Source: Candidatus Poribacteria bacterium
GTDB lineage: Bacteria > Poribacteria > WGA-4E > GCA-2687025
NCBI GenBank assembly: GCA_028818695.1
Contig: JAPPNK010000021.1
Location: 1-64,000, forward strand
Direction of reading: 5' to 3'
DNA: 64,000 nt
A model generated the notes under the pieces. It had not been told where the DNA came from. It saw only the letters and a list, made by a program, of their open reading frames with translations, and did no database searches. The translations under genes and the position numbers were made by a program. Positions 30,600-60,060 of this stretch are shown piece by piece; the first letter of the stretch is position 1; every line of letters starts with the position of its first letter.

Positions 30600-30766
30600 C
30601 TGACCTCATGCGTAAAGTTGGGACATTTGAACGAATGATCGCTCTATTTATGGGAAAAGGCGCCGCCAACCAGGCCGTCATTCCCGCGAAAGCGGGAATC
30701 CAGAGGCACCGCAGAAACCGTCCGCGTTCGCCCAGGCGAATGTCCCAACTAAAGCCTTAAGGTCAG
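30600..30766. repeat. Family B repeat, full-length copy B2 with inverted ends
   Basis: A 167-bp element. The right end is AATGTCCCAACT...AAGGTCAG and the left end, read on the other strand, is AATGTCCCAACT...GAGGTCAG; the outer 7 and inner 12 bases match with a divergent middle. Each end points to a promoter outside the element: HNH on the left (5 bases away) and hyuB on the right (10 bases away). The interior holds the REP-like palindrome at 30677-30705. No obvious target duplication, no reading frame. Confidence 0.7.
30677..30705. repeat. REP-like palindrome inside B2
   Basis: Stem ATTCCCGC-GAAA-GCGGGAAT with flanks that give a 29-base block. The exact reverse complement of the block recurs at 32488-32516 inside repeat A2, on the other side of hyuB. 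Palindromes of this kind are scattered in many bacterial genomes. Confidence 0.8.
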
Positions 30767-30811: not shown

Positions 30812-32410
30812 ATGACAAAAAAAACGAACGGCGCGGGAGAAGATCCGATCCTTCTTGAGGTGTATAAGAGCCTCCTGACCGCCGCCGCCGAAGAGATGGG
30901 CGCGGCGCTCCAGCAGTCCGCCTTCTCGCCCAACATCAAGGAGCGGCGCGACTTCTCATGCGCTCTCTTCAACGCCGACGGACGCATGACCGCCCAAGCC
31001 GCCCATATACCGGTTCATCTCGGCGCGATGCCGCTCTCCGTCCAGGCATGCATGGACGCGCACACCTTTGAGCCGGGCGACGCCGTCATCCTGAACGACC
31101 CGTACGAAGGCGGAACGCACCTGCCCGACATCACGCTCGTGACGCCTGTCTTTTTGCCGGGGGAAACGCGCCCGTTCGCCTTCGCCGCCAGCCGCGCGCA
31201 TCACGCCGACGTCGGCGGCATGTCCCCCGGCTCCATGCCGCTCTCGCGCGAAATCTATCAAGAAGGGCTGATCATACCGCCGATAAAAATCATGGAGCGC
31301 GGCAAACGCAACGCCAGCCTGTGGAAACTGCTGCTCGCCAACACGCGCACGCCGAACGAACGCGAGGGCGACCTGAATGCGCAGTTTGCCGCGAACCATA
31401 TCGGCGCGGAACGGCTCAAAGCGATTGTGAAGCGGCGCGGCAAATCGGAAACCGCCGACTGCATGGACGGACTGCTGCGCTATTCGGAACGGATGATGCG
31501 CGCGTTCATTGCCGATCTGCCGGACGGCGTATACGAGTATGAGGATCATATGGACGACGACGGCGTCGACCCTGAGCCGGTCGGCATCGCCGTTTCCATC
31601 GCCGTCAAGGGCGGAGAGGCGGCGGTGGATTTCAGCGGTTCGTCGACCCAGCGCGCTGGGAATGTGAACGCGGTGGAAGCGATCGCCGTCTCGGCGGCGC
31701 ATTACGCTTTTCTGTCGCTTTTGGCGCCGGGAATGCCGATGAACGCCGGCTCATGCGCGCCGATCACGGTCCACGCGCCTCAGGGAACCGTTGTGAACGC
31801 GCGGCGGCCGGCGGCGGTGGCGGCGGGAAATGTGGAAACCTCGCAGCGGATTGTGGACGCGCTGCTCGGCGCCCTGGCGAAAGCCGCCCCGACGCAAACC
31901 CCCGCGGCAAGCCAAGGCGCCATGAACAACTTGACCGTCGGCGGCATAGATCCGCGAACAGGCCGCTCCTACGCCTACTACGAAACGATCGCCGGCGGCG
32001 CGGGCGCAGGGTACAACAACCCAGGCGTCAACGCGGTCCATACGCATATGACAAACACGTTGAACACGCCTGTGGAGGCGCTGGAGTACGCCTATCCGTT
32101 CCGCGTCTCGGAATACTCGATGCGCGTCGGCTCCGGCGGAGAGGGGCAGTACCGCGGCGGAAACGGCGTCGTCCGCGAAATCGAACTGCTGGCGGACGCT
32201 TCGGCAACGCTTCTGGCTGAAAGCCGCAAGCGCGCCCCCTACGGCATCAACGGCGGGCAGCCGGGAACGCCGGGGGAAGATTATCTCATACGCGAAGGTA
32301 AAAAAACGCGCATCCCCGGCAAAACGCAACTTGAGCTCCAAAAAGGGGACAGACTGCGCATTGAAACGCCTGGCGGAGGGGGATACGGACCGAAGGCAGA
32401 AAACGGATAG
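30812..32410 (+). CDS. Hydantoinase B/5-oxoprolinase family protein
   Basis: A 532-residue HyuB-type subunit. Signatures: [26 protein letters not shown], the metal-site-like [36 protein letters not shown] and the C-terminal [19 protein letters not shown]. Members form ATP-dependent hydantoinases, 5-oxoprolinases or acetone carboxylase-type complexes together with a HyuA-type chain. No HyuA gene is next to it, so partner and substrate are unknown. It stands alone between repeats B2 and A2. Confidence 0.92.
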
Positions 32411-32418
32411 GCTTATTT

Positions 32419-32569
32419 GGCAGTCTCTATAGGCGATGATTTTGATTTTATAGAGTTGTTTTAGAATGCGGAGGTTGTCTGGGAGAACTCTGGATTCCCG
32501 CTTTCGCGGGAATGACGATCTGCCCGATTTGAACAGGATTTTCGTATATCATCGCCTGTAAAGGCTACC
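32419..32569. repeat. Family A repeat, copy A2, with 8-bp target duplication
   Basis: A 151-bp element with 20-bp inverted ends (left GGCAGTCTCTATAGGCGATG, right end matching 16 of 20). It is flanked on both sides, with no gap, by the direct repeat GCTTATTT (32411-32418 and 32570-32577), the mark of a transposition event. The centre holds a REP-like hairpin (32488-32516). It lies between the 3' ends of hyuB and the TonB receptor gene. Too short to encode a transposase. Confidence 0.85.
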
Positions 32570-32590
32570 GCTTATTTTATTAAAAGAGAA

Positions 32591-32651: not shown

Positions 32652-35225
32652 TTAGAAGTTCAGAGCCGCTTTGGCGTACCAAAACGCGCCGTTGATCCCA
32701 AACGGGCTGTATTCGCCGTAGATGTTCCCGTAATCGCGCGCGAGCGGATTGTGTTCAGGGAAGTTGTTGAACAGGTTCTGGGCGCCGACTGTCAAAGACG
32801 TGGTATCGCCGTCGAACGTGTAAGTTCCCTCAAGATCGAACACAATCTCGTCGCTGAATGTGTGCGGATACAGGGTGCCTTCAAACCAGGAGCCGTAGTA
32901 GCTCCCGCGCGCGACGACGCTGATATTTTCCGTCAAGAACTGGCGGAAAGTGGCGGTCCACCGGGTCTCCGGCAGGCCTTCCTGCAGCAGTCGAATGCGC
33001 AGATCGTTGAGAACGTCGGGGTTGTACTCAACAACCTCGTTTTGGGTGTAGTTGTATGCGATGCTCAGGTCGCCGATGCCAATCGGCCGTGTGAGAACCA
33101 CATCCACGCCCTGCGTTTCCGTCTCAAAGTCGTTCGTGAAGAAACGGAAACTCTGCAGGTTTCTCGCGTCGGTGATCCCCGCCGCCACCAGCTGATCAAC
33201 CTGATCAGGCGTCAGAGTGTAGTCCTGCGTCACCCCCAGGCGGTCCTCCACCCGTATGTTGAAGTAGTCGACGGTGAGCGTTGCGACATCGCCTGTGAGA
33301 ATGATTCCCGCTGTCGCGTTGGTCGATTTCTCCGGCTTGAGCGCTTCCCCGCCGAACAGCGCCGCCGCCGGGTTCGTGGACGGAATGATGCCCTTGTTCA
33401 CCAGTTCGCCTTGAGTGGGTCCAGGACTTTGATCAATTTCGGTTGTGACGTTGAAGGCGTTCTGCTGCCCCGGCGTCGGCGCTCGGAAGCCGGTGCTGAA
33501 GCTGGCGCGGGCGCGCATGTTTTCATGCACATTCGCGTTCGCCGCCACTTTAAAGTTGCTCGTTGATCCGAAATCCTCATAATCTTCATACCGGAAAGCC
33601 GCCCCAACCAGCAGCTCCGGCGCCGGACGCGCTTCCGCTTCCACATACACCGCCACGTTGCTTCGGTCCCAGACGCCGGCAGCGAGTTCGTTGAAGCCGA
33701 CAAACCCGTTTGAGCCAGAGCTGAAGCCCTGATCTGCCAGAGGACCGACCTTCCATGACGCTTCCTCGCCTTGTACGATTTCGAACTCTTCGATGCGGTA
33801 TTCCAGACCCACCGCCACGAACAGCGGCTCCGACACCGGATAGGTCAGATCCAGATTGACGCCCAGATCGTTCTGAATGTAGGCGCCAGGATCAAACGAG
33901 GTCGGCGTCTCCGGCCCGAGCGAAGCGTTCACCGTGTTGAAGATGAAGAAGTCAGCCTCATGCCGCCCCTGATAGCCGCTCACCTCCCAGGTCAGCCCCT
34001 GCTGCAGAGCGCCGCGCAGCCCCGCCGCGATGGAATGGTCGAACGTATCCGCGCCAAACCGAGGCGTGAAACCGCCGGGAAACAGCTCCTGGAAGGTGAA
34101 CAGATCGTCGCTGTCTTTAACGATCTGCAGCGCTTCCGGATCGGGGACATTGTCCACAATCTCCACAACCGGAATGCTCTCCACATCGCCGCTTATGCTG
34201 CCGACAAGAAGCGTTGCGCCGCCGTCGCCGGTGAACACAGCGGGGCGCGTGTTCGGATTTCGGAAGTAGAACCCGCCCTCAACGCGCTTGCTTGCGTAGT
34301 TCGCATGCCCGAACAGCTGGATGTCTTCGGTCAGAACCGCGCCGTAGTTGGCAAACAGCTTCAGATCGCCGCTCACATCGGGCGCGCCCCATATCTGCGC
34401 CGGGTCGCGCACATCTCCGTTGCCTGCGGCGACAAGATTGATCGCGTCGTTGCGTTGGACGGAGCGGATGGTCGGCGCTGAGCGGCCGTATTCGGCGCTG
34501 ATATTCGCCCAGCCGGCGCTGGTGCCTAAGCCGTAGTTGCCGGCGAAGGTGTAGAGCGCGCCGTCGCCTTCTTGGTAGGAACCCGCGCGCGTTTCAATCA
34601 AGGCGCCGTCCATGTTGTCGCGCAGCTGGAAGTTCAGCACCCCCGCGATGGCGTCCGAGCCGTACTGCGCCGACGCGCCGTCGCGCAAGATCTCAATGCG
34701 CTTGATGGCGATCGCCGGTATCGCAGAGATGTCGGCTCCCTGCGCCCCGTCCGAGACGCCGTTGCCGAGCCAGTAGATCACCGACGCGCGGTGCCGCCGC
34801 TTGCCGTTCACCAGAACCAGCGTGTGGTCGGACGGCAGCCCGCGCAGGTTTGCGGGGCGCACCACCGTCGCCGCGTCGCTGATGGGTTGCGTGTTTACAT
34901 TGAACGAGGGCGCAACATTGCGGAGCAGATCCACCGCGTCGGTTCCACCCTGATCGGTGAAGTCGTCGCCGCCGATCACATCGATCGGGACCGCCGAATC
35001 GATCACGGAGCGCGGACGCGCCCGCGAGCCTGTTACCACCACAGTCTCAAGCTGTTTCTCCTTTGATGATGTTGCCGTCTCCTCCGGAGCCATTTCTTCT
35101 CCGGCTGTTTCGGTCATTTCGCCTTCTTCATGAGAATCTGCCGAACACAAGCTCGGCGCCCCAATAAAGAGCAGAGCCCCTGCGGCGAGAATGAGCGCTT
35201 TAAAAATCGCGTTTTCCGTTCTCAT
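32652..35225 (-). CDS. TonB-dependent receptor, copy 1
   Basis: An 857-residue outer-membrane active transporter. Signal peptide (about 1-29, FKALILAAGALLFIGAPSLCSA), acidic spacer, TonB-box-like ETVVVTG, plug domain (about 75-200: VPIDVIGGDDF, NVAPSFN, NLRGLPSDHTLVLVNGKRRH, ILRDGASAQYGSDAIAGVLNF) and a 22-strand-type barrel ending AKAALNF with terminal Phe. Start at 35225 has AAGGAG 9 bases upstream. The substrate is unknown. It is a close paralogue of the next gene, same strand. Confidence 0.95.
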   Translation of the reverse strand: MRTENAIFKALILAAGALLFIGAPSLCSADSHEEGEMTETAGEEMAPEETATSSKEKQLETVVVTGSRARPRSVIDSAVPIDVIGGDDFTDQGGTDAVDLLRNVAPSFNVNTQPISDAATVVRPANLRGLPSDHTLVLVNGKRRHRASVIYWLGNGVSDGAQGADISAIPAIAIKRIEILRDGASAQYGSDAIAGVLNFQLRDNMDGALIETRAGSYQEGDGALYTFAGNYGLGTSAGWANISAEYGRSAPTIRSVQRNDAINLVAAGNGDVRDPAQIWGAPDVSGDLKLFANYGAVLTEDIQLFGHANYASKRVEGGFYFRNPNTRPAVFTGDGGATLLVGSISGDVESIPVVEIVDNVPDPEALQIVKDSDDLFTFQELFPGGFTPRFGADTFDHSIAAGLRGALQQGLTWEVSGYQGRHEADFFIFNTVNASLGPETPTSFDPGAYIQNDLGVNLDLTYPVSEPLFVAVGLEYRIEEFEIVQGEEASWKVGPLADQGFSSGSNGFVGFNELAAGVWDRSNVAVYVEAEARPAPELLVGAAFRYEDYEDFGSTSNFKVAANANVHENMRARASFSTGFRAPTPGQQNAFNVTTEIDQSPGPTQGELVNKGIIPSTNPAAALFGGEALKPEKSTNATAGIILTGDVATLTVDYFNIRVEDRLGVTQDYTLTPDQVDQLVAAGITDARNLQSFRFFTNDFETETQGVDVVLTRPIGIGDLSIAYNYTQNEVVEYNPDVLNDLRIRLLQEGLPETRWTATFRQFLTENISVVARGSYYGSWFEGTLYPHTFSDEIVFDLEGTYTFDGDTTSLTVGAQNLFNNFPEHNPLARDYGNIYGEYSPFGINGAFWYAKAALNF

Positions 35226-35341
35226 TTGACACTCCTTAGAAATTCTCTGTGCCGCGCCAACGCTCTCTGCGCTGACGGTTGTTGTCTGATAGACGCCGGA
35301 CCGGCAAAACAGACGCCAATAAAGGCTCCGCTTTGCCGATT

Positions 35342-35370
35342 CGGATACAACAACACGCATGCTTACTCAA
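35342..35370 (-). promoter_or_regulatory. Promoter of TonB receptor copy 1
   Basis: On the minus strand TTGAGT (35370-35365), 17-base spacer, TATCCG (35347-35342), predicting a leader of about 110 bases. No fold was modelled in that leader. Confidence 0.45.
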
Positions 35371-35422: not shown

Positions 35423-37984
35423 TTAGAAATTCAAAGCTGCCTTCGCATACCAAAAAGCGCCGCTGAACCCAAACGGGCTGTATTCCCCGTAAATGCTCCC
35501 GACAAAGCCCGGCGTGGGGTTCTTGTCGGGGTAGTTGTTGAACAGGTTCTGGACTCCCGCTGTCAGAGCGGTCGCGCCGCCGTCCAGCGCGTAGGTCGCT
35601 TCAAGGTCGAACACAATCTCATCCCCGAAGGTATGCTCCGTGATCGTCCCTTCAAACCAGCTGCCGTAGTAGCTGGCGCGTCCGACAGCGCGCAGGTTCT
35701 CCGTCAACGACTGCCGCAGGGTCGCGCTCCACCGCGTCTTCGGCAGCCCCTCCTCCAACAAGCGAATGCGCAGGTCGTCCAAGATCTTCGGATCGTAATC
35801 GACCACCTCGTTGTCCGTATAATTGTAGGCGAGGTTCAATTCGCCGTTGCCGACAGGCCGCGTCAACACGACATCCACCCCCTGTGTCTCCGTCTCAAAG
35901 TCGTTCGTGAAGAAACGGAATTCCTGAAGGTTCGCCGCGCTCGCGATGCCCGCGCTCACCAGCTGCTCAACCTGCTCAGGCTCCAGCTGAAAATCCTGCG
36001 ACACCGCCAAGCGGTCTTCAACCTGTATGTTGAAGTAGTCGACCGTCAACGTCGCGTTGCTGCCGGTGAGAATAATCCCCGCCGTCGCGTTCGTCGACTT
36101 CTCCGGCTTCAGCGGCTCCCCGCCGACCAGCTCCGCCGCCGGGTTCGTCGAAGGGATTGTGCCTCTGTTCACCAGGTCGCTTTTTTGCGGGTTGAATTCG
36201 GTCGTGACGTTGAAGGCGTTCTGCTGCCCCGGCGTCGGCGCCCGGAAGCCGGTACTGTAGCTGGCGCGGGCGCGGATGTTCTCATGCAGATTCATGTTCG
36301 CCGCCATCTTGTAATTCGTCGTGGAGCCGAAATCCTCAAAATCCTCGTACCGCAAAGCCGCCCCAATCAGCAGCGTCGGCGTCGGGCGCGCTTCAGCCTC
36401 CACATACACCGCCGCGTTGTTGCGGTCCCAAACGCCGGCGGCGATGTCGCTGAAACCAGGGAACCCGTTTGAGCCGGAGCTGAACCCCTGTTGAGCCAGC
36501 GGTCCAACGACGTACGACGCTTCCTCGCCTTGAACAATCTCAAACTCTTCGATGCGGTATTCCAGACCCGCCGCCAAGAACACCATCTCGGACGCCGGAT
36601 AGGTCAAATCCAGGTTGACGCTCAGATCGGTCTGAATGTAGGCGCCAGGATCAAACGAGGTCGGCGTCTCCGGTCCGAGCGAAGCGTTCACCGTGTTGAA
36701 AATGAAAAAGTCCGACTCATGCCGCCCCTGATAACCGCTCGCCTCCCAGGTCAACCCCTGCGGCAGAGCGCCGCGCAGCCCCGCCAAGACCGAATGGTCC
36801 TGCGTGTCCGCGCCAAACCGAGGCGTGAAACCGCCCGGAAACATCTCCTGGAACGAAAACAGGTTGTCGTCGTCCATCACCTGTTGAAGCGCCGCCGCGT
36901 CGGGAACGTTGTCGTTCACCTCCACAACAGGCGTTTCGCCTTCGCCGCTCAGGTTGGCGATGAGAAGCGTCTTGCCGCCGTCGCCGCTGAACACGGCGCC
37001 GCGCGTGTTCGGATTGCGGAAAAAGAAGCCGCCCTCAACGCGCTTGCTTGCATAGTTCGCATGTCCGAACAGCTGAATATCCTCCGTGAGAGCCGCGCCG
37101 TAGTTGGCAAACAGCTTCAGATCGCCGCTGATGTCTGGATTTCCCCATATCTGCGCAGGGTCGCGCACATTTGTGTTGCCGGCGGCGAGAAGATTCTGCG
37201 CATCCCTACGCTGCGTGGAGCGCACCGTTGGGCCAGATCTGCCGTATTCGGCGCTCAGGTTCGCCCATCCGGATCTCTGCCCGACGCCGTAGTTGCCGGC
37301 GATGGTGTAGAGCGTTCCGTCCCCTTCTTGGTAGGAACCCGCCCGCGTTTCAATCATGGCTCCGTCCGTGTTGTCGCGCAGCTGAAAGTTCAGCGCCCCC
37401 GCGATGGCGTCCGAGCCGTATTGGGCTGACGCGCCGTCGCGCAAAATTTCAATGCGTTGAATAGCGATCGCCGGTATAGCCGAAAGGTCGGCTCCCTGCG
37501 CTCCGTCCGAGACGCCGTTGCCGAGCCAGTAGATCACCGACGCGCGGTGCCGCCGCTTGCCGTTCACCAGAACCAGCGTGTGGTCGGACGGCAGCCCGCG
37601 CAGGTTTGCGGGGCGCACCACCGTCGCCGCGTCGCTGATGGGTTGCGAATTCACGTTGAACGAGGGGGCGACATTGCGAAGCAGGTCCATTGCGTCGGTT
37701 CCGCCTTGCTCCACAAACGATTCGCCGCCGAGCACATCGATCGGAACCGCCGAATCGATCGCGGAGCGCGCCCGCGCCCGCGAGCCTATCACCACCAGCT
37801 TCTCAAGCTGTATGTCTGCGGAAGAGCTGGCGGATTCCTTCTCCCCGCCGCATGACGCCGTCTCTTCAGCATGCTCCTCCCCCTCCTCATGTGAAGCGGC
37901 TGAACACCAGAAAGCGGTCCCGGCGCAGAGCAGCAACGTCGATCCAAAAAACAACGATCTCAAAATCGCGCGTTTATATCTCAT
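35423..37984 (-). CDS. TonB-dependent receptor, copy 2
   Basis: An 853-residue paralogue of the preceding receptor with the same layout: signal peptide (LLLCAGTAFWCSA), an acidic His/Glu-rich spacer (HEEGEEHAEE), TonB-box-like KLVVIGSRA, plug, barrel and final Phe. The two proteins match over nearly the whole length, differing most in the leader/spacer and in extracellular-loop-like segments (for example SPGPTQGEL versus a shorter NPQKSDL). A block of about 144 bases in the plug is identical at DNA level. AAGGAG before the ATG. Confidence 0.95.
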   Translation of the reverse strand: MRYKRAILRSLFFGSTLLLCAGTAFWCSAASHEEGEEHAEETASCGGEKESASSSADIQLEKLVVIGSRARARSAIDSAVPIDVLGGESFVEQGGTDAMDLLRNVAPSFNVNSQPISDAATVVRPANLRGLPSDHTLVLVNGKRRHRASVIYWLGNGVSDGAQGADLSAIPAIAIQRIEILRDGASAQYGSDAIAGALNFQLRDNTDGAMIETRAGSYQEGDGTLYTIAGNYGVGQRSGWANLSAEYGRSGPTVRSTQRRDAQNLLAAGNTNVRDPAQIWGNPDISGDLKLFANYGAALTEDIQLFGHANYASKRVEGGFFFRNPNTRGAVFSGDGGKTLLIANLSGEGETPVVEVNDNVPDAAALQQVMDDDNLFSFQEMFPGGFTPRFGADTQDHSVLAGLRGALPQGLTWEASGYQGRHESDFFIFNTVNASLGPETPTSFDPGAYIQTDLSVNLDLTYPASEMVFLAAGLEYRIEEFEIVQGEEASYVVGPLAQQGFSSGSNGFPGFSDIAAGVWDRNNAAVYVEAEARPTPTLLIGAALRYEDFEDFGSTTNYKMAANMNLHENIRARASYSTGFRAPTPGQQNAFNVTTEFNPQKSDLVNRGTIPSTNPAAELVGGEPLKPEKSTNATAGIILTGSNATLTVDYFNIQVEDRLAVSQDFQLEPEQVEQLVSAGIASAANLQEFRFFTNDFETETQGVDVVLTRPVGNGELNLAYNYTDNEVVDYDPKILDDLRIRLLEEGLPKTRWSATLRQSLTENLRAVGRASYYGSWFEGTITEHTFGDEIVFDLEATYALDGGATALTAGVQNLFNNYPDKNPTPGFVGSIYGEYSPFGFSGAFWYAKAALNF

Positions 37985-43797: not shown

Positions 43798-44721
43798 ATG
43801 AAACAGCAGGACAAACGCGCATTCTGGCTCATACTTGCGGGCGTCGGCATGGCGGCTGCCGCTGTGTTTATGTTTTTGGCGGCGGAGCGTCTCAGAAAAA
43901 GCGGCATGGACAAAAAGCAGACGGCTGAGCAAACCCTCAATCCTTCCCCTGCTCCCGTCGAGGTAAAGCCGATTGTTCAGCCGCTGCCTTCCTTCCCTAA
44001 AAAGACGCCGCCTCCAGCAATAAGACGCGCTGAGGAGCCTGTTGAGGCGCCGTCAATGAAGCCTTCCCCTCGGTATGTTTATGTTGAAGACCCCATCGAA
44101 AAGGCGGCGCGGGACTACGACGCAAGCGGGCAGGTCGGAGATCCGCCGGCGGGCTGGAAAAAGGATTACTCTCACTGGGATTCCGAAAACTGGGGGATGC
44201 CTATCGAGAAGCTGGGGACGCTCTACCCAAACGGAAAGATCGAGTATAGCGCCCAGCCTTTCAAATTGAGCAAAGAAGGCAACAGATTATTAATGGAGGA
44301 ACTTGAAGCGATTCGCCAAGAAAAAGGAGAAGAAGCCGTCAAAGAGTTCATCTCCGACACGCCGAAAACAGGCGCAATTCGCCTTGACGACGAGTATCTG
44401 GACGAAAGAAGATTTACTGAAGTGGAGCTGGAAAACGGAGAGACGGTTTATGTGGCTCTGAGTCTCTACGACATTTACGGTTATAGAATTCTCGGCAACA
44501 GGACCCGTCAATTCAACTCTCCCAACGGCTTCTCCATTGCGTATTACCGCCGGCACACTGACGGCGCGCTCTTGCGCGATATTTACATGCCGGATAAAGG
44601 CTCTAAAGAGTTCATCGCCGCGCCCCCTCCCGACCTGTCAAAATACACGGACGCTCAGGTCGAGTCCTTGACCCGCACATGGCGGGGAAACTTAGAAGCG
44701 CTCAGTCCGTGCTATTTCTAA
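43798..44721 (+). CDS. Single-pass membrane protein, tandem copy 1
   Basis: A 307-residue protein with a short basic N-terminus, one membrane helix (about 9-28, AFWLILAGVGMAAAAVFMFLAAE), a Lys/Gln stretch, a Pro-rich linker (about 45-80) and a C-terminal domain (about 90-300) starting YVYVEDPIEKAARDYDASGQVGDPPAGW. It is nearly identical to the next gene over the first 125 residues and then only about half the positions agree. Family not recognised. Topology by the positive-inside rule places the C-terminal domain outside the cytoplasm. Weak Shine-Dalgarno site (GAAGGGCGAG). Confidence 0.7.
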   Translation: MKQQDKRAFWLILAGVGMAAAAVFMFLAAERLRKSGMDKKQTAEQTLNPSPAPVEVKPIVQPLPSFPKKTPPPAIRRAEEPVEAPSMKPSPRYVYVEDPIEKAARDYDASGQVGDPPAGWKKDYSHWDSENWGMPIEKLGTLYPNGKIEYSAQPFKLSKEGNRLLMEELEAIRQEKGEEAVKEFISDTPKTGAIRLDDEYLDERRFTEVELENGETVYVALSLYDIYGYRILGNRTRQFNSPNGFSIAYYRRHTDGALLRDIYMPDKGSKEFIAAPPPDLSKYTDAQVESLTRTWRGNLEALSPCYF

Positions 44722-44848: not shown

Positions 44849-45772
44849 ATGAAACAGCAGGACAAACGCGCATTCTGGCTCATACTTGCGGGCGTCGGCA
44901 TGGCGGCTGCCGCTGTGTTTATGTTTTTGGCGGCGGAGCGTCTCAGAAAAAGCGGCACGGACAAAAAGCAGACGGCTGAGCAAACCCTCAATCCTTCCCC
45001 TGCTCCAGTCGAGGTAAAGCCGATTGTTCAGCCGCTGCCCTCCTTACCTAAAAAGACGCCGCCGCCTGCGGTAAGACGCGCCGATGAGCCTCCCGTTGAG
45101 CTGCCGATGAAGCCATCCCCGCGGTATGTTTATGTTGAAGACCCCATCGAAAAAGCGGCGCGGGACTACGACGCAAGCGGACAGGTCGGAGATCCGCCGG
45201 CGGGTTGGAAAGAGGATTACTCCCATTGGGATTCTGAAAACTGGGGCATGCCTGTTGAAAAACTGGGAATGCTCTATCCGGACGGAAAACTGGACTACAG
45301 TTTTTTCCCAATTAAATTGAGCGCAGAAGGATACGAACATCTGAAGAAAGAGAGGGAGTCGATCCGTCAAGAAAAGGGCGACGAAGCGGCGAAGGAGTTC
45401 ATCTCAGACGAACCGAAAGAAGGCGTCATCCGCATCGGCGACGACTATTTTGACGGCTACCGCTACACGGAAGCGGAGCTGGAAAACGGAAAGACTGTTT
45501 ATGTCGCTTTGTATCAGGACCACATCTACGGATATAGAACGTTCGGCAACCGCTTTCGAGAATTTACGTCGCCCAGCGGTTTCTCCATCGTCTATATTCG
45601 AAGAGACCCTGACGGCGCGCTTCTCCGACAGGTCGGAACCCCCGACGATAAATGGCATGAATTCATCGCCGCGCCGCCGCCCGACAGGTCGGAATACACA
45701 GCCGAGCAGATAGAAGCCATGAAAAACTCATGGGGGTACGACCGAGAAGTGTTTAACGCCTGCCCTTTCTAA
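44849..45772 (+). CDS. Single-pass membrane protein, tandem copy 2
   Basis: A 307-residue paralogue of the gene just upstream, same length and domain order (membrane helix, Pro-rich linker, C-terminal domain). The duplicated DNA begins at AAGGGCGAGACC just before the ATG. Differences gather after about residue 125 (for example ALSLYDIYGYRILGNRTR against ALYQDHIYGYRTFGNRFR). Both end in an AAPPPD..(E/K)YT..Q(I/V)E motif followed by a short variable tail. Function unknown. Confidence 0.7.
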   Translation: MKQQDKRAFWLILAGVGMAAAAVFMFLAAERLRKSGTDKKQTAEQTLNPSPAPVEVKPIVQPLPSLPKKTPPPAVRRADEPPVELPMKPSPRYVYVEDPIEKAARDYDASGQVGDPPAGWKEDYSHWDSENWGMPVEKLGMLYPDGKLDYSFFPIKLSAEGYEHLKKERESIRQEKGDEAAKEFISDEPKEGVIRIGDDYFDGYRYTEAELENGKTVYVALYQDHIYGYRTFGNRFREFTSPSGFSIVYIRRDPDGALLRQVGTPDDKWHEFIAAPPPDRSEYTAEQIEAMKNSWGYDREVFNACPF

Positions 45773-49548: not shown

Positions 49549-51585
49549 ATGAGACGGCGAACCGCTGCGGCGTTGACGGCTGTCGCGCTGTTTTTCTCTA
49601 TCGGCTGCGGCGATAGATCCACTGACCATGTCGCCCATTCCAGAGACAGGAAAGGTACCGCTTCCGTCGCCTATTCGCCGGACGGCAAAACGCTTGCGGC
49701 GGTGGGAGAATCTTTTGACGGCGACACGATCCTGCTCTTCGACGCCGAAACGGGGGAGGTAAAAACCTCGCTGGAAGGACATGAACGACTTGTCCGTTCC
49801 GCGGCGTTCTCGCCGGACGGCAAGACGCTTGTCAGCGGCGGCGGATGGATGGACGACACGATTCGAGTATGGGATGTCGAAACAGGCGCGCTGCTCAAGA
49901 CCCTGAACATTAGGAACGGCGACTATGTCGTTACCTTTTCGCCTGACGGCAAAACGCTCGTCAGCGGCGATCATAGAGGCGAGATACGGTTCTGGGATGT
50001 CGAGACATGGACTCAAACTGCAACCCATTCGTTAAGAGGAGACGCGAACTGCTTGGCGTACTCGCCGGATGGAGAGAGGCTTGCCGCCGGCGCAGACTCA
50101 AGCCGAGCGGTTCATATTTTCGACGGAAAAACCTTCGAACTCGTCCAATCTCTCCGCGGGCATCGGGATATGATCACATCCACTGCCTATTCGCCGGACG
50201 GAAAGATACTTGCCAGCGGCGGAAACGAGGGGCAAATAACGCTTTGGAACGCTTACACAGGCAAACGGCTTAAAAAGTTAGAAGGGCATGAAAGCGGCGT
50301 GATGTCGCTCTCGTTTTCCCCTGACAGCAAAACGCTTGTGAGCGGCGGCGGCGACAAAACGATACGGCTTTGGGATCTCCAAACGCGCGAGCTGATCAAA
50401 ACGATACAGGACCCTGAAGGCTCCAGATCGGTCGCCTATTCGCCGGACGGAACGACGATTGCCAGCGGCAGCTTAAGAACCGGCATACGCTTATGGAGCA
50501 CTGAAACGGGGGAGCTGATCAAAACGCTGAACAACGTTCAAAATGCAGTCCACTTTCTGACTTTTTCGCCGGACGGAGAGTCGGTCGCTGTGGACGGCTC
50601 AGGCACAGACCCGCGGGTTACGAATGTGAGCATCTTCATTCGCTTTTTAGACCCAAAAACGCTGCAAGAAAAGTTCAGAATGACGGATAACATGAAGGTG
50701 AGAGGCGCCCAATCGAGAGCCTTCTCGGCTGCGTATTCGCCAGACGGCAGGACGCTTGCGGTCGGAAACATCAGCTCTACAGCTTTTTGGCGGCCGGACG
50801 CATACCACTGGGACGCTAAAAAAAGAGAAGATATCAAAAAAGAGTTTCTAGCGCTGGCTGAGCAGGCAAAGACAGACCCTCAAATACCCGAGGATTCGAG
50901 GGAGTTCATCATCGGCGAGCTGCTAGGCTCTGTCCGGCACAATATGTATTATCAAGTTAAGAGAAACGATATTAGAGCCGCACGATGTATGGACTTTTCG
51001 CCCGACGGAAAAATAGTCGCCATCGGCAATGGTCTTTTTGGAGGAATCGGACTCATCCATGCGGATACTGGAACGGTGAAATGGAGAAAATCAGGGTACA
51101 GAGACAAAGTTCGCTTTGTCGATTTTTCACCCGACGGAAAAACGCTCGTCAGCGGCAGCCTCAATCGAACCGTGCGCTTCTGGGACGCCGAAACAGGCGC
51201 CGTAATACGCGACTTGAAAGGGCATCAAGGCATGGCGTACGCCGGCGCCTACTCTCCAGACGGCAAGACGCTCGCCGTCGCCAGCTCCAAAACCTTAGCC
51301 GTCTGGGACGCCGATACAGGCGCCCTGATCCATACGCTGGAGGGTCATGACGGCGCCGTATTCTGTCTGGCGTTTTCTCCAGACGGCGCCGAAATCGCGA
51401 CAGGCGGGCGGGATAAAACGGTCCGCCGATGGAACGCCAAGACAGGCGAACTCATCAAAACGCTGGAGAAACATGCGGCGCCCGTGACCGCCGTCGCCTA
51501 TTCGCCGGACGGCGCCGATCTGTTGAGCGGCGACGCGGACGGGAAGATTTTGCGCTGGAGTTTGAATGAAGGAGGAGAGAAATGA
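49549..51585 (+). CDS. Large WD40-repeat lipoprotein 1 (two propellers)
   Basis: A 678-residue lipoprotein: leader AALTAVALFFSIGC with lipobox SIGC. The mature chain has about 13-14 blades of the type (V/A)YSPDGKTLA.....I.LWDAETGE(L/V)(I/K)KTL. A non-repeat, Lys/Glu-rich helical segment (about residues 420-475, WDAKKREDIKKEFLALAEQAK...) divides the blades into a first and a second propeller. GGAGGAGAGAA before the ATG is identical to that of the next gene. Probable role: extracytoplasmic binding scaffold. Last four bases overlap the next gene (ATGA). Confidence 0.85.
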   Translation: MRRRTAAALTAVALFFSIGCGDRSTDHVAHSRDRKGTASVAYSPDGKTLAAVGESFDGDTILLFDAETGEVKTSLEGHERLVRSAAFSPDGKTLVSGGGWMDDTIRVWDVETGALLKTLNIRNGDYVVTFSPDGKTLVSGDHRGEIRFWDVETWTQTATHSLRGDANCLAYSPDGERLAAGADSSRAVHIFDGKTFELVQSLRGHRDMITSTAYSPDGKILASGGNEGQITLWNAYTGKRLKKLEGHESGVMSLSFSPDSKTLVSGGGDKTIRLWDLQTRELIKTIQDPEGSRSVAYSPDGTTIASGSLRTGIRLWSTETGELIKTLNNVQNAVHFLTFSPDGESVAVDGSGTDPRVTNVSIFIRFLDPKTLQEKFRMTDNMKVRGAQSRAFSAAYSPDGRTLAVGNISSTAFWRPDAYHWDAKKREDIKKEFLALAEQAKTDPQIPEDSREFIIGELLGSVRHNMYYQVKRNDIRAARCMDFSPDGKIVAIGNGLFGGIGLIHADTGTVKWRKSGYRDKVRFVDFSPDGKTLVSGSLNRTVRFWDAETGAVIRDLKGHQGMAYAGAYSPDGKTLAVASSKTLAVWDADTGALIHTLEGHDGAVFCLAFSPDGAEIATGGRDKTVRRWNAKTGELIKTLEKHAAPVTAVAYSPDGADLLSGDADGKILRWSLNEGGEK

Positions 51586-53663
51586 GACGGCGAACCGCTG
51601 CGGCGTTGATGGCTGTCGCGCTGCTTTCCACTATCGGCTGCGGCGATAGACCCGCCGACAGGCGCAGCGGCGTGTTCACATCTCGCGGCAACCCCCTTGT
51701 CGCCTATTCGCCGGACGGCAAAACGCTCGCCGCTGTCGGATGGGACTACTACGGCGCCTCGATCAGGCTCTTCGATGCTGAAACAGGCGAGGTCAAAAAA
51801 ACGCTGGGAGGGGATAACCAAGGCGTCCGTTCCGCGGCGTTCTCTCCTGACGGCAAAACGCTTGTCAGCGGCGGATGGATGGACAACTCCATACGGATTT
51901 GGGATGTCCAAACAGGCGAGCTTCTGAAAACACTGACCGCTTTAAGCGAAGACATTGTAGTCGTCTACTCTCCCGACGGCAAAACGCTTGTCAGCGGCGG
52001 TCGGTTGGGCGGCGGACTCCAATTCTGGGACGCCGAAACATGGACGCCCATAGCAAGCGACCGTTACAACGGCAGTATTGCCAGCTTGGCGTACTCGCCG
52101 GACGGACAACGGCTGGCTGTCGGCCTCGCCCAATTATCCGAGGTTCATTTGGTGGACGGCGTCACATATGAGCGCGTTGAATCTCTCCGCGGACATCTGG
52201 ACAATGTCGTTTCCGTCGCCTATTCGCCGGACGGAAAGATTCTTGCCAGCGGAGGATCCGAGGGGGAGATACTGCTTTGGGACGCCTACACCGGCAAACG
52301 CCTCAAAATATTAACAAAAGCCGAGGGATCGGCGGTGTCGGTTGTCTTTTCGCCGGACAGCAAAACGCTCCTCGGCGAAAACGAGCGCAACATGGCAATA
52401 AAGAAAACAACTTCGGGATCTTGGGTGTCAGTTGCCTATTATTCACATGACGGCAAAACGCTCCTCGGCGAAAACGAGCGCAACAATATACGGCTCTGGG
52501 ATGTCCAAACAGGCGAACTGATCAAGACAATCCAAAACCCTGACGCGAAACGATCGGTCGTTTATTCGCCGGACGGAACGACGATTGCCAGCGGCAACTT
52601 AGCAGGCGTACATTTATGGAATGCCGAAACGGGCGAGCGGATAAAGACGCTGGGAGACTATAGTCATGCAGTCCGCTTTCTGGCTTATTCGCCGGACGGC
52701 GATATCGTCTTCGCCAGCAACGCGCAGGGGCATATCGGAATGTTAGACGCCAAACCATTAAAAATAACAAAGCCGTTAGATCCCCTCGGCTGGCTGACAG
52801 GTTCGGCGGCTCTGTCTCCAGACGGCAAGACGCTGGTCGCAGGCGCAACCAGTTCCGAACTTGTGTTTTGGCAGGTTGCCGCGCACCACTGGGACGATGA
52901 CAAAAGAAGAGCGGGCAGAGAAGCGGCCAAAAAAGAGCTCCTGGCGCGGGCGAAGCATCTTGCATTGAACGCCAAATCGGACATATCGCGCCGCTTCGCT
53001 GTCACCTTGGAGGACGCCGCGAATCGATCTGTTTATAGATTTCCCGTCGGAAGATATTTCGGGAGCGCCTATTGCATTGCGTACTCCCCCGATGGAAAAA
53101 CGATCGCTGCCGGCGGAGGCGGACCAGATCACGAAATCGTATTGAGCGAATCTGAAACAGCGCATGTTAAAGCGGTCATAAAAGGCCACAAGGAACCGGT
53201 CCGCTTTGCCGCCTTCTCACCCGACGGAAAAACGCTCGTCAGCGGCGGTCTCGACCGAGCCGTGCGCTTCTGGGACGCCGAAACGGGCGCGGCAATACGC
53301 GACTTAAAAGGGCATAAAGGCATGGCGTACACCGGCGCTTATTCTCCCGATGGAAAGACGCTCGCTGTCGCCAGCTCCGAAACTGCAGCCGTCTGGGACG
53401 CCAAAACAGGCGCACTGCTCCATACGCTGGAGGGTCATGACGGCGCCGTATTCTGTCTGGCGTTCTCTCCAGACGGCGCTGAAATCGCGACAGGCGGGCG
53501 AGACAAAACGGTACGACGATGGAGCGCCAAGACAGGCGAACTCATTAAAACGCTGGAGAAGCATGCGGCGCCCGTGACCGCTGTCGCCTATTCGCCGGAC
53601 GGCGTCCATCTATTGAGCGGCGACGCGGTAGGTAAAATATACCGATGGAGTTTGAACGACTAA
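51582..53663 (+). CDS. Large WD40-repeat lipoprotein 2 (two propellers)
   Basis: A 693-residue paralogue of the preceding gene: leader AALMAVALLSTIGC, two sets of blades, and a helical divider at about residues 430-490 (HHWDDDKRRAGREAAKKELLARAKHLAL). The first half of the first propeller carries an in-frame duplication of DGKTLLGENERN. The C-terminal blades match copy 1 almost base for base (for example around 51340-51560 and 53420-53650), which points to recent conversion or duplication. Followed after 22 bases by a third WD40 gene. Confidence 0.85.
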   Translation: MRRRTAAALMAVALLSTIGCGDRPADRRSGVFTSRGNPLVAYSPDGKTLAAVGWDYYGASIRLFDAETGEVKKTLGGDNQGVRSAAFSPDGKTLVSGGWMDNSIRIWDVQTGELLKTLTALSEDIVVVYSPDGKTLVSGGRLGGGLQFWDAETWTPIASDRYNGSIASLAYSPDGQRLAVGLAQLSEVHLVDGVTYERVESLRGHLDNVVSVAYSPDGKILASGGSEGEILLWDAYTGKRLKILTKAEGSAVSVVFSPDSKTLLGENERNMAIKKTTSGSWVSVAYYSHDGKTLLGENERNNIRLWDVQTGELIKTIQNPDAKRSVVYSPDGTTIASGNLAGVHLWNAETGERIKTLGDYSHAVRFLAYSPDGDIVFASNAQGHIGMLDAKPLKITKPLDPLGWLTGSAALSPDGKTLVAGATSSELVFWQVAAHHWDDDKRRAGREAAKKELLARAKHLALNAKSDISRRFAVTLEDAANRSVYRFPVGRYFGSAYCIAYSPDGKTIAAGGGGPDHEIVLSESETAHVKAVIKGHKEPVRFAAFSPDGKTLVSGGLDRAVRFWDAETGAAIRDLKGHKGMAYTGAYSPDGKTLAVASSETAAVWDAKTGALLHTLEGHDGAVFCLAFSPDGAEIATGGRDKTVRRWSAKTGELIKTLEKHAAPVTAVAYSPDGVHLLSGDAVGKIYRWSLND
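52360..52485 (+). repeat. 33-bp direct repeat inside WD40 lipoprotein 2
   Basis: A 33-base block (52360-52392 and 52453-52485), coding for the SKTLLGENERN segment, occurs twice with a period of 93 bases, that is 31 codons. It is in frame, so the reading frame is kept, but the first unit (NMAIKKTTSGSWVSVAYYSH) lacks a complete W-D ending and gives a malformed blade. Confidence 0.85.
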
Positions 53664-53685
53664 GCGAAAGCAGAAAAGGACGCGG

Positions 53686-54804
53686 ATGAGGAAACAGAAC
53701 GCCTTATGGGCATGCGTCGCGGCATTCTTGATATTGACAGGCTGCGGCGACAAAGCGCGCAAGGACGCCTACTACCCAGTCATTGGCAGCGGCGCCATCC
53801 TTGCGCTCGCGTTCTCTCCGGACGGAAAGACGCTCGCCAGCGGACACTACAGGGTGCATCGCTCTCAGACGGAAGCTCGGTTGTGGGACGTGAAAACAGG
53901 AGAAAAGAAAGCGACTCTGGAGGGGCATCATAATAGAATCGGAACGCTGACATTCTCTCCGGACGGAAAGACGCTCGCCAGCGGCGCCTCCGACAGAACG
54001 GCGCGGCTATGGAGTGCCGAAACAGGAGAGCCAATCCAAACCTTTACCACAACGACGACGGCCAGCGGCGTTCCAGCATGGCGCATCGTTTCCGCCGCAT
54101 TCGCCGCCGATGGAAAAAACCTCGCGGCAATTGACAACTTCGGAGGCGTCATCGTTTGGAACCCAGACACGGGCAGTCCAGCAAGAAATCCGATACAGAT
54201 ATCGACGATGCAGATACGGCTCACCGGCATTGATGTCTCAGCCTTTTCGCCCGACGGGCAACTGATTGCTGTCAACGAAATGAGGGGGAAAGTTCTCCTC
54301 ATGGACGCGGTTACAGGCGAACATATCCGCGTTATGAAAGGCCATTCGTATCGCATTCATGCGCTCGCCTTCTCACCCGACAGCTCAACGCTTGCCAGCG
54401 GCAGTTTTGACTGGTCAATACTGCTTTGGGACCCTTACACAGGCAAGCGGCTCAAACGGCTCAAAGGGCATGAAAGCAGAGTACTGTGCTTGGCGTTTTC
54501 GCCGGACGGAAAAACGCTTGCCAGCGGCTGCATTTCTCCGCGGAAAGAGACGATAGACTGGCTTAGACTGAAAGGTGAGCGCGGGAAAATAATGGATTTA
54601 AAACACGGCGATTTAAGCGAAGAAACGCTGCGCCTTTGGGATGTGAAGACAGGCGCCCATCTGAAAACGCTGGACGGCCATAAAATGGCGGTCTGGTCGG
54701 TCGCGTTCTCTCCGGACGGAAAAACGCTCGCCAGCGGCGGCGCGGATCAAACCGTTCGCATCTGGAACGTGAAAACGGGGGAACTGATCAAGACGCTCAA
54801 ATGA
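53686..54804 (+). CDS. WD40-repeat lipoprotein 3 (one propeller)
   Basis: A 372-residue lipoprotein: leader LWACVAAFLILTGC with lipobox LTGC, then about seven to eight blades, one propeller. One blade carries an insert (about residues 285-310, ISPRKETIDWLRLKGERGKIMDL). Ends exactly with the motif [33 protein letters not shown], whose DNA recurs at the end of the minigene at 56054. AAAAGGA 7 bases before the ATG. Last gene of the run that starts with the Gfo gene. Confidence 0.85.
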   Translation: MRKQNALWACVAAFLILTGCGDKARKDAYYPVIGSGAILALAFSPDGKTLASGHYRVHRSQTEARLWDVKTGEKKATLEGHHNRIGTLTFSPDGKTLASGASDRTARLWSAETGEPIQTFTTTTTASGVPAWRIVSAAFAADGKNLAAIDNFGGVIVWNPDTGSPARNPIQISTMQIRLTGIDVSAFSPDGQLIAVNEMRGKVLLMDAVTGEHIRVMKGHSYRIHALAFSPDSSTLASGSFDWSILLWDPYTGKRLKRLKGHESRVLCLAFSPDGKTLASGCISPRKETIDWLRLKGERGKIMDLKHGDLSEETLRLWDVKTGAHLKTLDGHKMAVWSVAFSPDGKTLASGGADQTVRIWNVKTGELIKTLK

Positions 54805-54840
54805 AACCAAACAATGCGCGGAATGAACCCGTTTAAATTC

Positions 54841-54890
54841 CGTTCCCGCGGAATATCATCGCCTTCAGGCGCTGCTCAATATCTGCCCGC
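54841..54890 (+). repeat. Family A right-end fragment C1
   Basis: Contains ATATCATCGCCT (54853-54864), shared with the right arm of A2, then GGCGCTG and TGCCCGCCC directly before TTGACG. TGCCCGCCCATTGACG is found after copy A1 too, so the -35 box belongs to the shared sequence. Nearly the same 110-base stretch precedes 56532. Confidence 0.6.
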
Positions 54891-54893
54891 CCG

Positions 54894-54921
54894 TTGACGA
54901 ACGTTCAAAAACGTCTATAAT
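54894..54921 (+). promoter_or_regulatory. Promoter of WD40 gene at 54957
   Basis: TTGACG (54894-54899), 16-base spacer, TATAAT (54916-54921), a strong consensus. Repeated with two changes at 56469-56496. Leader of about 30 bases with AGAAGGAGG before the ATG. Confidence 0.75.
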
Positions 54922-54956
54922 CGACATGAAAGCGGAATGCGCAGAAGGAGGCGCCC

Positions 54957-56012
54957 ATGAACAAATATCGGAACCGAGTCGTCATGGCGGCGGCCGCAGC
55001 GGCGCTGTTCATGGCTAGCGCCCGCGCGCATGAAGACGCCGTTTCCTATCCCAGCGTCATGCTGATTGGACATACCGCGTCCGTTAGGGCGGTCGCGTTC
55101 TCGCCGGACGGCAAAACGCTCGCCAGCGGCAGTTTCGACGCGACGATTCGGCTGCGGGACGTCAACACCTATAAAGCGACAGCGCTGAAAGGGCATGAAT
55201 ACGGCGTCTACTGCCTCGCCTATTCGCCGGACGGCAAGACGCTCGTCAGCGGCGGCATCGATTCGACGGCGCGCGTCTGGGATCTGAAAACAGGCAAAAC
55301 CGTCCAAACTTACGCGGAGCATCAAAACACGATCATGCGCATTGCGTACTCCCCTGACGGAAAAAAGATTGTCAGCGGCGATCTTGAGGGAACCGTCTCT
55401 CTTTGGAAGGTCGGCGCGGGAGAGACGATCCATCGTTGGAGCGTTGAAGCGGAAGACGAGGAGGAAAAGAACAGCTATATCCAAGCGATCGCGTATTCGC
55501 CGGACGGCAAAACGATCGCCGCCAGCCGAGGCGTATGGGAATCGGTCATCCTCTTATGGGATTCAGAGACGGGCGAGTTGAAACGAACCTTCACGGCGCA
55601 TCGATCTGACGTCAACGCCGTTCAGTTTTCGCCCGACGGAAAGTTCATCGCCAGCGCCGGCGGCAACGCCATTTTGGTCTGGGGCGTCAACAATGATCAG
55701 AAGTTCAAGATTCAAGTCAACCCCCAGGACGCGCCTGATCCGAAGTTGAGCGATCGGATCTACGCCTTGGCGTATTCGCCGGACGGCAAGACGCTCGCCA
55801 GCGGAGGAGCCGACTCCATCATACGCCTTTGGGACCTTGAAACAGGGGTTTTGAAGGCGGCGCTGGAGGGGCATACGGGAACGATCTATTCGCTCGCGTT
55901 CTCGCCGGACGGCAGGACGCTTGCCAGCGGCGCAGGGCAGATGCAATGGAATCTCCCCAAAGACCGCACGGTACGCCTCTGGAGACTAGACGAAAACGGC
56001 GGCGGGAGTTGA
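54957..56012 (+). CDS. Periplasmic WD40-repeat protein A
   Basis: A 351-residue exported protein: signal peptide (about 1-24, [17 protein letters not shown], cleavage after ARA), no lipobox Cys, then seven blades, one complete propeller. Blade ends include [15 protein letters not shown] and RLWDLETG. Strong ribosome site. It has its own strong promoter rather than reading from the upstream operon. Paralogous to the gene at 56532, about two-thirds identical by eye. Confidence 0.88.
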
Positions 56013-56053
56013 TCGACAGACGGCGTATCATCAACATGAGACAGAGGGCGTCT

Positions 56054-56287
56054 ATGAAAAAATCTTGGGATCGAGCAATCATGACAGCGGCGGCGCTGCT
56101 GGCGATCAACGCGCAGGCGCACAACCCACCGGAATCCTACCGAAGCTCCATCTTGATTGGACATACCGCATCCGTTTGGGCGGTCGCATTCTCGCCGGAC
56201 GGAAACACGCTCGCCAGCGGCGGGGCAGATCAAACCGTTCGGATCTGGGATGTGAAAACGGGGGAACTGATCAAGACGCTCAAATGA
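56054..56287 (+). pseudogene. One-blade WD40 remnant (chimeric minigene)
   Basis: A 77-codon frame: ATG with AGAGGG upstream, an intact signal peptide resembling those of the flanking WD40 genes ([12 protein letters not shown]), the segment [21 protein letters not shown] shared with them, then [23 protein letters not shown] plus the following stop and AACAATGCGCGGAATGA, shared with the end and 3' flank of the gene at 53686. This looks like a recombination product between a 5' part of one WD40 gene and a 3' part of another. A single blade cannot close a propeller, so it is probably non-functional, though translation is possible. Confidence 0.7.
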
Positions 56288-56409
56288 AACCTAACAATGC
56301 GCGGAATGAAAAAGCCATGATCAAACGGCGTCTGGCGGCTCTCGCCCGCCTCCCGGTAAACGCCATTCCCGCCCCTTCATCCGGTCATCCCGCGCGCTCA
56401 TTCCCGTTT

Positions 56410-56465
56410 AAATTCTGTTCGCGCGAAATATCATCGCCTTCAGGCGCTGGTCAATATCTGCCCGC
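56410..56465 (+). repeat. Family A right-end fragment C2
   Basis: Second copy of the C1 stretch: TTTAAATT, ATATCATCGCCTTCAGGCGCTG and TGCCCGCCC just before TTGACG. Between the minigene stop and this copy lie about 98 bases that are absent from the equivalent place near 54830. Confidence 0.6.
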
Positions 56466-56468
56466 CCT

Positions 56469-56496
56469 TTGACGAATGTTCAAAAACGTCTATAAT
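56469..56496 (+). promoter_or_regulatory. Promoter of WD40 gene at 56532
   Basis: TTGACG (56469-56474), 16-base spacer, TATAAT (56491-56496). Duplicate of the promoter at 54894. Confidence 0.75.
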
Positions 56497-56531
56497 CGAC
56501 ATGAAAGCGGAATACGCAGAAGGAGGCGCCC

Positions 56532-57596
56532 ATGAACAAATATCGGAACCGAGTCGTCATGGCGGCGGTCGCAGTGGCGCTGCTCACGACGAACGCCCGC
56601 GCGCATGAAGACGCCGTTTCCTACCCCAGCATCATACTGATTGGACATACCGCATCCGTTGAGGCGGTCGCGTTCTCGCCGGACGGCAAGACGCTTGCCA
56701 GCAGCAGCTATGATGAGACGATTCGGCTGCGGGATGTTGACACCTACAAGGCGACGAAGCTGGACGGGCATGAAAAAGGAACGCTTAGCCTTGCCTATTC
56801 GCCGACCGGAAACGCTCTCGCCAGCGGCGGCAGAGATTCAACGGCCCGCATCTGGAACCCTAAAACAGGGGAAGCCGTCCAAACCTATACTGGCCATCAA
56901 GATTCGGTCATATCTCTCGCGTACTCCCCCGACGGCAAGACGATTGTCAGCGGCAGCTACGATGAAACCATTCATCTATGGAACATCGAAACGGGAGAGA
57001 TCGTCCATCTTTGGAGCCTCAAAGCAAAAGAGAAGGACGAAAAGAACAAACGCATAAAATATATCCAAAAGGTCGCGTTTTCGCCGGACGGCAAAACGAT
57101 CGCCGGCTGCATCGGTGGACAAGTCTCTCCCATTTATCTATGGGATGTTGAGACAGGTGAGATGAAACGAGCCTTCAAAGAGCATCGGAAAGAAGTGAAC
57201 GACATTGTGTTCTCGCCCGACGGAAAGTTCATCGCCAGCGCCGGCGACGACGAAGGCAAAATACTGGTCTGGGGCGTCGAGACCGACCAGATGATTGTTC
57301 TCCAGATCGATCCTTCGGAAACGCAGAGCATCTTTGTGAGCGACGATATCCTATCCTTGGCGTATTCGTCGGACGGCAAGACGATCGCCAGCGGCGGACG
57401 CGACACTTTCGTACGTTTGTGGGATGTCGAAACGGGCGCCTTGAAGGCGAAACTGACGGGTCATACTGGAGATGTTAACTCGCTCGCGTTTTCGCCGGAC
57501 GGCAAGACGCTCGCCAGCGCCGGCGGCATCTCGCAGAATCGCAATCAACCCGACGACAGAACAGTTCGTATATGGAACCTAACCAAAAGCGAGTGA
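56532..57596 (+). CDS. Periplasmic WD40-repeat protein B
   Basis: A 354-residue exported protein: signal peptide ending [15 protein letters not shown], then seven blades, with blade endings IRLRDVD, RIWNPKTGE, HLWNIETGE and RLWDVETGA. Paralogue of 54957 from promoter to C-terminus. It differs in an extra Lys-rich loop (AKEKDEKNKRIKYIQK). Three bases separate its stop from the next gene (57600), which links the WD40 array to the MoxR pair in one transcript. Confidence 0.88.
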   Translation: MNKYRNRVVMAAVAVALLTTNARAHEDAVSYPSIILIGHTASVEAVAFSPDGKTLASSSYDETIRLRDVDTYKATKLDGHEKGTLSLAYSPTGNALASGGRDSTARIWNPKTGEAVQTYTGHQDSVISLAYSPDGKTIVSGSYDETIHLWNIETGEIVHLWSLKAKEKDEKNKRIKYIQKVAFSPDGKTIAGCIGGQVSPIYLWDVETGEMKRAFKEHRKEVNDIVFSPDGKFIASAGDDEGKILVWGVETDQMIVLQIDPSETQSIFVSDDILSLAYSSDGKTIASGGRDTFVRLWDVETGALKAKLTGHTGDVNSLAFSPDGKTLASAGGISQNRNQPDDRTVRIWNLTKSE

Positions 57597-60017: not shown

Positions 60018-60060
60018 TGAAACAAGTTCTAAAATCAAAACATCGTCTGTAGAGAGCTCC
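60018..60060 (-). repeat. Family A fragment A3 (inverted)
   Basis: The reverse complement starts GG..CTCTACAGACGATG and matches the left 43 bases of A1. Sequence beyond that becomes GTCCCCGTGAAAC, as in B3. It ends 15 bases before the -35 at 60076. Confidence 0.65.

Follow-up and report, generated by a model that had tools for sequence, protein, structure and literature searches.

A CGTC REP Hairpin at the Core of a Miniature Element of Candidatus Poribacteria That Is Probably Mobilized by IS1-Type Transposase

Family A is a MITE, being short, non-coding, multi-copy, bounded by terminal inverted repeats (TIRs), and flanked by a target-site duplication, and it is found in about 100 copies or remnants in the genome of a Candidatus Poribacteria bacterium. 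We consider it probable, at roughly three chances in four, that family A is moved in trans by an IS1-family transposase of the same genome, with its REP core as a passenger. As a MITE it is an ordinary element, a new family in a well-known class; more interesting than the MITE itself is the CGTC REP that forms its core. The copy with which we deal here is found in the first 64,000 nucleotides of contig JAPPNK010000021.1, the stretch of DNA that is referred to below as the window. The genome to which the window belongs comprises 3.57 Mb in 35 contigs, and flanks were read from the stretches around the family A ends.

Structure and Position of the Element

The 8-bp sequence GCTTATTT is present at both 32411–32418 and 32570–32577, where it directly abuts the two sides of a 151-bp element (32419–32569), as a preliminary description of this DNA had reported. 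The inverted ends that were described as 20 bp long are also present, but they are imperfect, with GGCAGTCTCTATAGGCGATG and GGTAGCCTTTACAGGCGATG agreeing at 16 of 20 positions, or at 18 of 22 over 22 bp. The features of this copy are as follows.

32411–32418, plus strand: left copy of the 8-bp target duplication, GCTTATTT
32419–32569, plus strand: family A MITE, 151 bp, without coding capacity
32419–32440, plus strand: left terminal inverted repeat, GGCAGTCTCTATAGGCGATGAT
32491–32517, minus strand: CGTC-1 type REP core, by comparison of its sequence with the definition in PMC3733652
32548–32569, minus strand: right terminal inverted repeat, GGTAGCCTTTACAGGCGATGAT, matching the left one at 18 of 22 positions
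32570–32577, plus strand: right copy of the 8-bp target duplication, GCTTATTT

The stop codon (TAG, 32408–32410) of a 532-aa ORF at 30812–32410 directly precedes the left duplication at 32411, and the next large ORF, at 32652–35360, is on the opposite strand; the MITE is therefore situated between convergent genes. As a single strand the unit folds strongly (z = -5.5), which is expected wherever TIRs enclose a hairpin core, and it may have a role in transcript ends. The minus-strand ORFs beside the MITE (32652–35360 and 35423–37984) are adjacent large paralogues that harbor blocks of 74–84% identity. Elsewhere in the window, tandem duplicate ORFs of 307 aa are found at 43798–44721 and 44849–45772, with their first 300 bp 93% identical, and the large ORFs at 49549–57596 contain dozens of degenerate repeats spaced about 126 bp apart, encompassing 41 copies of a WD40-type unit and recently duplicated blocks that are 93% identical over 300 bp.

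Copies and Boundaries of Family A

Near-full copies of family A at 87% identity or above number 40 in the genome, and the 20-bp end sequence, with up to 3 mismatches allowed, gives 100 matches, compared with 1 for a reversed control. Both ends are recognized in 46 copies, of which 17 have a perfect 8/8 flanking repeat and a further 8 a 7/8 repeat, against a chance expectation of about 0.02 among the 46. The perfect duplications represent 17 different 8-mers, always at the same boundaries, and the ends are conserved in all copies. Because these duplications are so far above the chance level, the boundaries of family A are real and common to its copies, which upholds the earlier claim that the window copy defines the exact ends of the family.

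The same counts confirm a footprint of transposition. The designation of this footprint as classical cut-and-paste goes further than the evidence, since duplications of a fixed length arise both in cut-and-paste and in replicative DDE transposition and do not separate the two; IS1 itself moves both by cut-and-paste and replicatively. Two more remnants of family A are found in the window.

1184–1343, plus strand: a further family A copy, diverged to 75% identity across the element, with a disrupted palindrome core and without a matching flanking duplication
60020–60060, minus strand: family A fragment with one end only (end at 60060)

The family A end pattern is absent from the 58 relatives that were searched, and across 84,980 genomes the exact pattern gave one stray match, which is about the chance level.

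Two Unassembled ISs with Related Ends

As the preliminary description had noted, no transposase is encoded inside family A, and its mobility must come from elsewhere. Many contigs of the assembly end 52–55 bases into one of a small number of recurring termini, which is the expected effect of multi-copy ISs on an assembler. From these termini two unassembled multi-copy ISs can be recognized, alpha (GGTAGTACCTGAAGGCGATGG) and beta (GGTGGTACGCTCATGCGATGG), which together are found at 18 contig ends. When left termini are matched to right ones through their flanking sequence, nine insertions emerge, five of alpha and four of beta, and in all nine the duplication is perfect over 8 bp and no longer. 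One of these ISs is found at the beginning of the window, where the break in the contig arises from assembly.

1–54, minus strand: outer 54 bp of an IS-beta terminus; beta is multi-copy and the contig breaks inside it
55–62, plus strand: CTCTGAGC, the 8-bp target duplication of the IS-beta copy, the other copy of which is at the end of contig C29

The ends of family A match those of alpha at 15 of 21 positions, and at 19–21 of 30 when the subterminal bases are included (the interior of alpha is not in the assembly), and a variant end, A' (GGCAGTCTCTACAGGCGATGAAATTCATT), matches the right end of alpha at 23 of 30. Few 30-mers in the window reach such scores, and their number does not exceed that of the known copies of these elements in the window. 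The match to the ends of beta is only 11–12 of 21, and the similarity of family A to any IS stops about 40 bp from the ends. The search for full ISs with family A ends that had been proposed leads to the alpha termini, with the IS interiors unassembled. Two full-length candidates that were picked out by paired ends, on contigs C18 (1111 bp) and C32 (1275 bp), were rejected, as both are without a duplication and that on C18 is also without a transposase-like frame.

Profile searches of the assembly with PF12762, PF01609, PF01610, and PF03400 (IS1595, DDE_Tnp_1, ISL3, and the IS1 DDE domain) found none of these transposase domains, because the multi-copy ISs are absent from it. The exact beta end pattern was not found in viral contigs, and a looser IS-end pattern applied to 98 relatives gave matches that, where inspected, fell inside ordinary genes and so are attributed to chance. 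At the ends of contigs C8 and C15 an IS-alpha insertion adjoins a family A copy, with three copies of the 8-mer CCTTCCAC separating and flanking the two; it looks as if one of these two elements had landed in the other's target duplication. Contigs C4, C11, and C22 start with long C runs or other low-complexity sequence, and these are probably assembly artefacts.

Assignment of the ISs to the IS1 Family

Two decayed copies of beta are present in the assembly, at C26:6684-6880 and C12:16242-16542. The latter has been reduced to 301 bp by an internal deletion but retains both ends, and shows the usual step by which MITEs are formed. These copies encode MxRPRSYRHDIRCIHCGSNWIIN(Y/C)GKDRGKQTALCRQCETRHTP and carry MFRPRSYRHDIRCIHCGSNW...CRQC. 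The translation of the C26 copy matches the NCBIfam model IS1_IS1595_Zn (NF050000) with E = 9e-6, just under its cut-off, and the N-terminal zinc ribbon also matches an IS256-type model nearly as well. An InsA-type zinc ribbon is thus found for beta, in a decayed copy, and was not seen for alpha. When the 47-aa beta zinc ribbon was used in a tblastn search of plasmids, the only matches had E values of at least 0.2 and were annotated as IS1 or IS1595.

A clearer view of the family comes from G002, a genome of the same family as the window's own, where an 851-bp element (L187:129-979) with inverted ends GGTGCTCCTGATCCATGATGATA / GGTGTTCCTAACTCATGATGATA runs from GGTGCTCC to GGAACACC and is a homologue of beta. 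For the DDE portion of this element the matches are transpos_IS1 (4.2e-16) and PF03400 (7e-5); the zinc-ribbon/HTH portion was scanned in a second G002 copy, where it gave transpos_IS1 at 1.8e-19. These halves are in different frames and are joined at a run of seven A, so that this relative, like IS1, combines an insA zinc ribbon with an insB' DDE domain through a frameshift at an A-run. In a further genome (G007), the 5' ends of IS1-type elements read GGTGTTCTCTATAGATGATGG, and have TCTCTATAG..GATG in common with family A.

The assignment of beta and its kin to IS1 is well supported and that of alpha, which is made from the similarity of its ends, is likely; for family A we infer the link. 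As in IS1, the ends begin with GG and the target duplication is short. In contrast to IS1, family A is without coding capacity and its end similarity extends over only about 20–40 bp, and the duplications of family A, alpha, and beta are 8 bp long rather than the 9 bp that is usual for enterobacterial IS1. IS6, ISL3, IS66, and IS1595 had been put forward as candidate sources of mobility; the domains of IS1595 and ISL3 were not found in the assembly, which is a weak argument as the relevant ISs are unassembled, and the evidence points instead to IS1.

The CGTC REP Core

On the minus strand, positions 32491–32517 read CGTC-ATTCCCGC-GAAA-GCGGGAAT-CCA, which comprises an 8-bp stem, a 4-nt loop, and a CCA tail. 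Members of the CGTC-1 REP class are defined by a CGTC tag, an 8-bp stem beginning with AT, a 4-nt loop, and a CCA tail (PMC3733652), and by its sequence the family A core fits this class of Di Nocera et al. Such palindromes, with no more than 1 mismatch, number 225 in the genome and 0–18 in relatives; relatives without family A have at most 18. A search of Rfam gave nothing above threshold.

For 75 intact REPs, sampled by following an unselected list in the order of the contigs, the surroundings were classed. In 66 of the 75 (88%) the arms around the REP belong either to family A or to a second family, B, and in the remaining 9 to neither. Family B is the more abundant of the two in this sample and has the ends CYGACCTCATGCGTAAAGTTGGGACAT (seen also at L211 and L226–L265); one copy is present in the window.

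30600–30766, plus strand: family B MITE-like element with ends CTGACCTCATGCGTAAAGTTGGGACAT and the same CGTC REP core at 30679–30700

The repeats flanking family B are less regular, at 6–12 bp, and its boundaries are loosely defined. A strict search for TIRs with a 7–8 bp duplication around other REPs found nothing, because the flanks of family B are more variable. Three chimeras of A and B are joined at the REP (C7:9048, C16:144683, and C3:183956), and at C24:102254-102407 an A' arm is joined to an A arm at the same place. From the sample and the chimeras it follows that the REPs mostly travel as the cores of MITE-like units, with the hairpin as the site of arm exchange. Another REP-centred element, whose ends, G(A/G)TAGTACGCTYAWACGGAGT, resemble those of IS-beta, may be present at the end of contig C14 (L111, REP at C14:148569).

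A third unassembled IS, gamma, is inserted at one fixed position within the CGTC REP of both A and B elements. One terminus, joined at ...ACAGATA|CTCCCGCG inside the REP, accounts for at least 7 contig ends, and the opposite terminus, at GTCATT|TACATGATTA, for 6.

Own genome (G000), C3e, C13e, C16e, C21s, C23s, C24s, C31e; and C1s, C5s, C10s, C19s, C19e, C32s: gamma contig ends

The inner end of gamma holds a hairpin, CCCCTCAGGTATGCGCATACTTAAGGGG, and in its behaviour this IS is like IS110/IS1111.

A Proposed Mechanism and Its Alternatives

In the mechanism that we propose, full-length ISs such as IS-alpha and IS-beta would encode an IS1-family transposase that recognizes the family A ends in trans, the arms of family A being in effect IS1-like ends. 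The transposase would excise or copy the 151-bp unit and join it to a staggered cut, to give rise to the 8-bp duplication; the footprint is what the copies display, and the enzyme is its presumed agent. The central CGTC-1 REP hairpin would have been captured once and then amplified with the MITE, and REPs would thereby have spread as passengers of families A and B, for which the association is observed and the causal direction is our interpretation. The common core would act both as an arm-exchange point, as in the three chimeras, and as the insertion point of gamma.

That the mobilizing enzyme belongs instead to another DDE family with 8-bp duplications (IS1595, ISL3, IS66, IS6, or IS256), with its full-length copy unassembled and the likeness to IS1 reflecting convergence on GG...GATG ends, is unlikely. 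The zinc ribbon of beta is recognized by a model common to IS1 and IS1595, with the IS256-type model nearly equal, and multi-copy ISs have been left out of the assembly, both of which would accommodate such an enzyme. However, the genome has no match to PF12762, PF01609, or PF01610, and the only ISs with similar ends are alpha and beta, with their 18 contig ends, whose homologues in the same-family genome are IS1 in both halves. It is highly improbable that the unit spreads as a REP, through a RAYT-type tyrosine (HUH) transposase that recognizes the central hairpin, with the outer arms as mere conserved surroundings, as the boundaries of the unit are the outer TIRs with their 8-bp duplication, and HUH enzymes are not known to make such a duplication. 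The core does take the form of a REP hairpin, and RAYTs have been linked to GTAG-class REPs (PMC3733652, PMC2817692), but CGTC REPs are reported to be without RAYT association (PMC3733652).

The other alternative concerns the direction of the association, in that REPs may insert preferentially into existing MITEs, which would then be landing sites rather than carriers. This would explain why the REP occupies the same central position in two or more MITE families whose ends differ, and gamma, an IS, does target the REP. Against this, family A copies have arms and REP at one fixed junction with 87–95% identity, which fits a single capture followed by amplification, and no intact family A copy without the palindrome region was seen, though the region is disrupted in some. 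The fixed junctions and high identity favour capture over repeated landing, and we regard the landing-site explanation as quite improbable. We accordingly retain trans-mobilization by an IS1-family transposase, with the REP as passenger, as the preferred reading.

Relation to Known Elements and Significance

Family A shares with Correia/NEMIS, RUP, ERIC, and other bacterial MITEs the properties of being short, non-coding, TIR-bounded, and multi-copy with palindromic transcripts. By description it is set apart from them by other ends and other duplications, those of the known elements being mostly TA. The closest precedent for the whole arrangement of a MITE, a central REP, and an IS target, compared in architecture only, is QMITE2 of Coxiella burnetii, which is 150–190 bp long with TIRs of 23–25 bp and duplications of 7–11 bp of varying sequence, has a central REP that is targeted by IS1111, and is often found at the 3' ends of genes (PMC5896051). 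QMITE2 differs in that its REP is of the GTAG class, its duplication varies in length, and the origin of its transposase was left undetermined (PMC5896051), whereas the element described here, in another organism, has a CGTC REP, a fixed 8-bp duplication, and IS1-type ends. CGTC-1 REPs, including dRS3 of Neisseria, were described as REPs without a transposase, and in H. neapolitanus CGTC REP dimers occur in 41-bp palindromes (Di Nocera et al. 2013, PMC3733652). In contrast to these published examples, the REP is here the centre of 150–165-bp units, with clear 8-bp duplications in the case of family A.

We tentatively suggest, at somewhat less than even odds, that in this lineage CGTC REPs, which reportedly have no dedicated transposase, are spread by IS1-family enzymes acting on DDE-type MITEs whose cores they form, and that recombination at the hairpin allows the core to be swapped between MITE families. 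The core would so act as a modular hub that combines the roles of passenger, site of arm exchange, and target of a third IS. The spread of CGTC REPs has until now been unexplained, and the mobilization of a REP-containing mini-element by an IS1-type enzyme becomes a testable question. Equally testable is whether CGTC REPs elsewhere may be the cores of decayed MITEs, as has been suggested for short copies of QMITE2 in Coxiella (PMC5896051).
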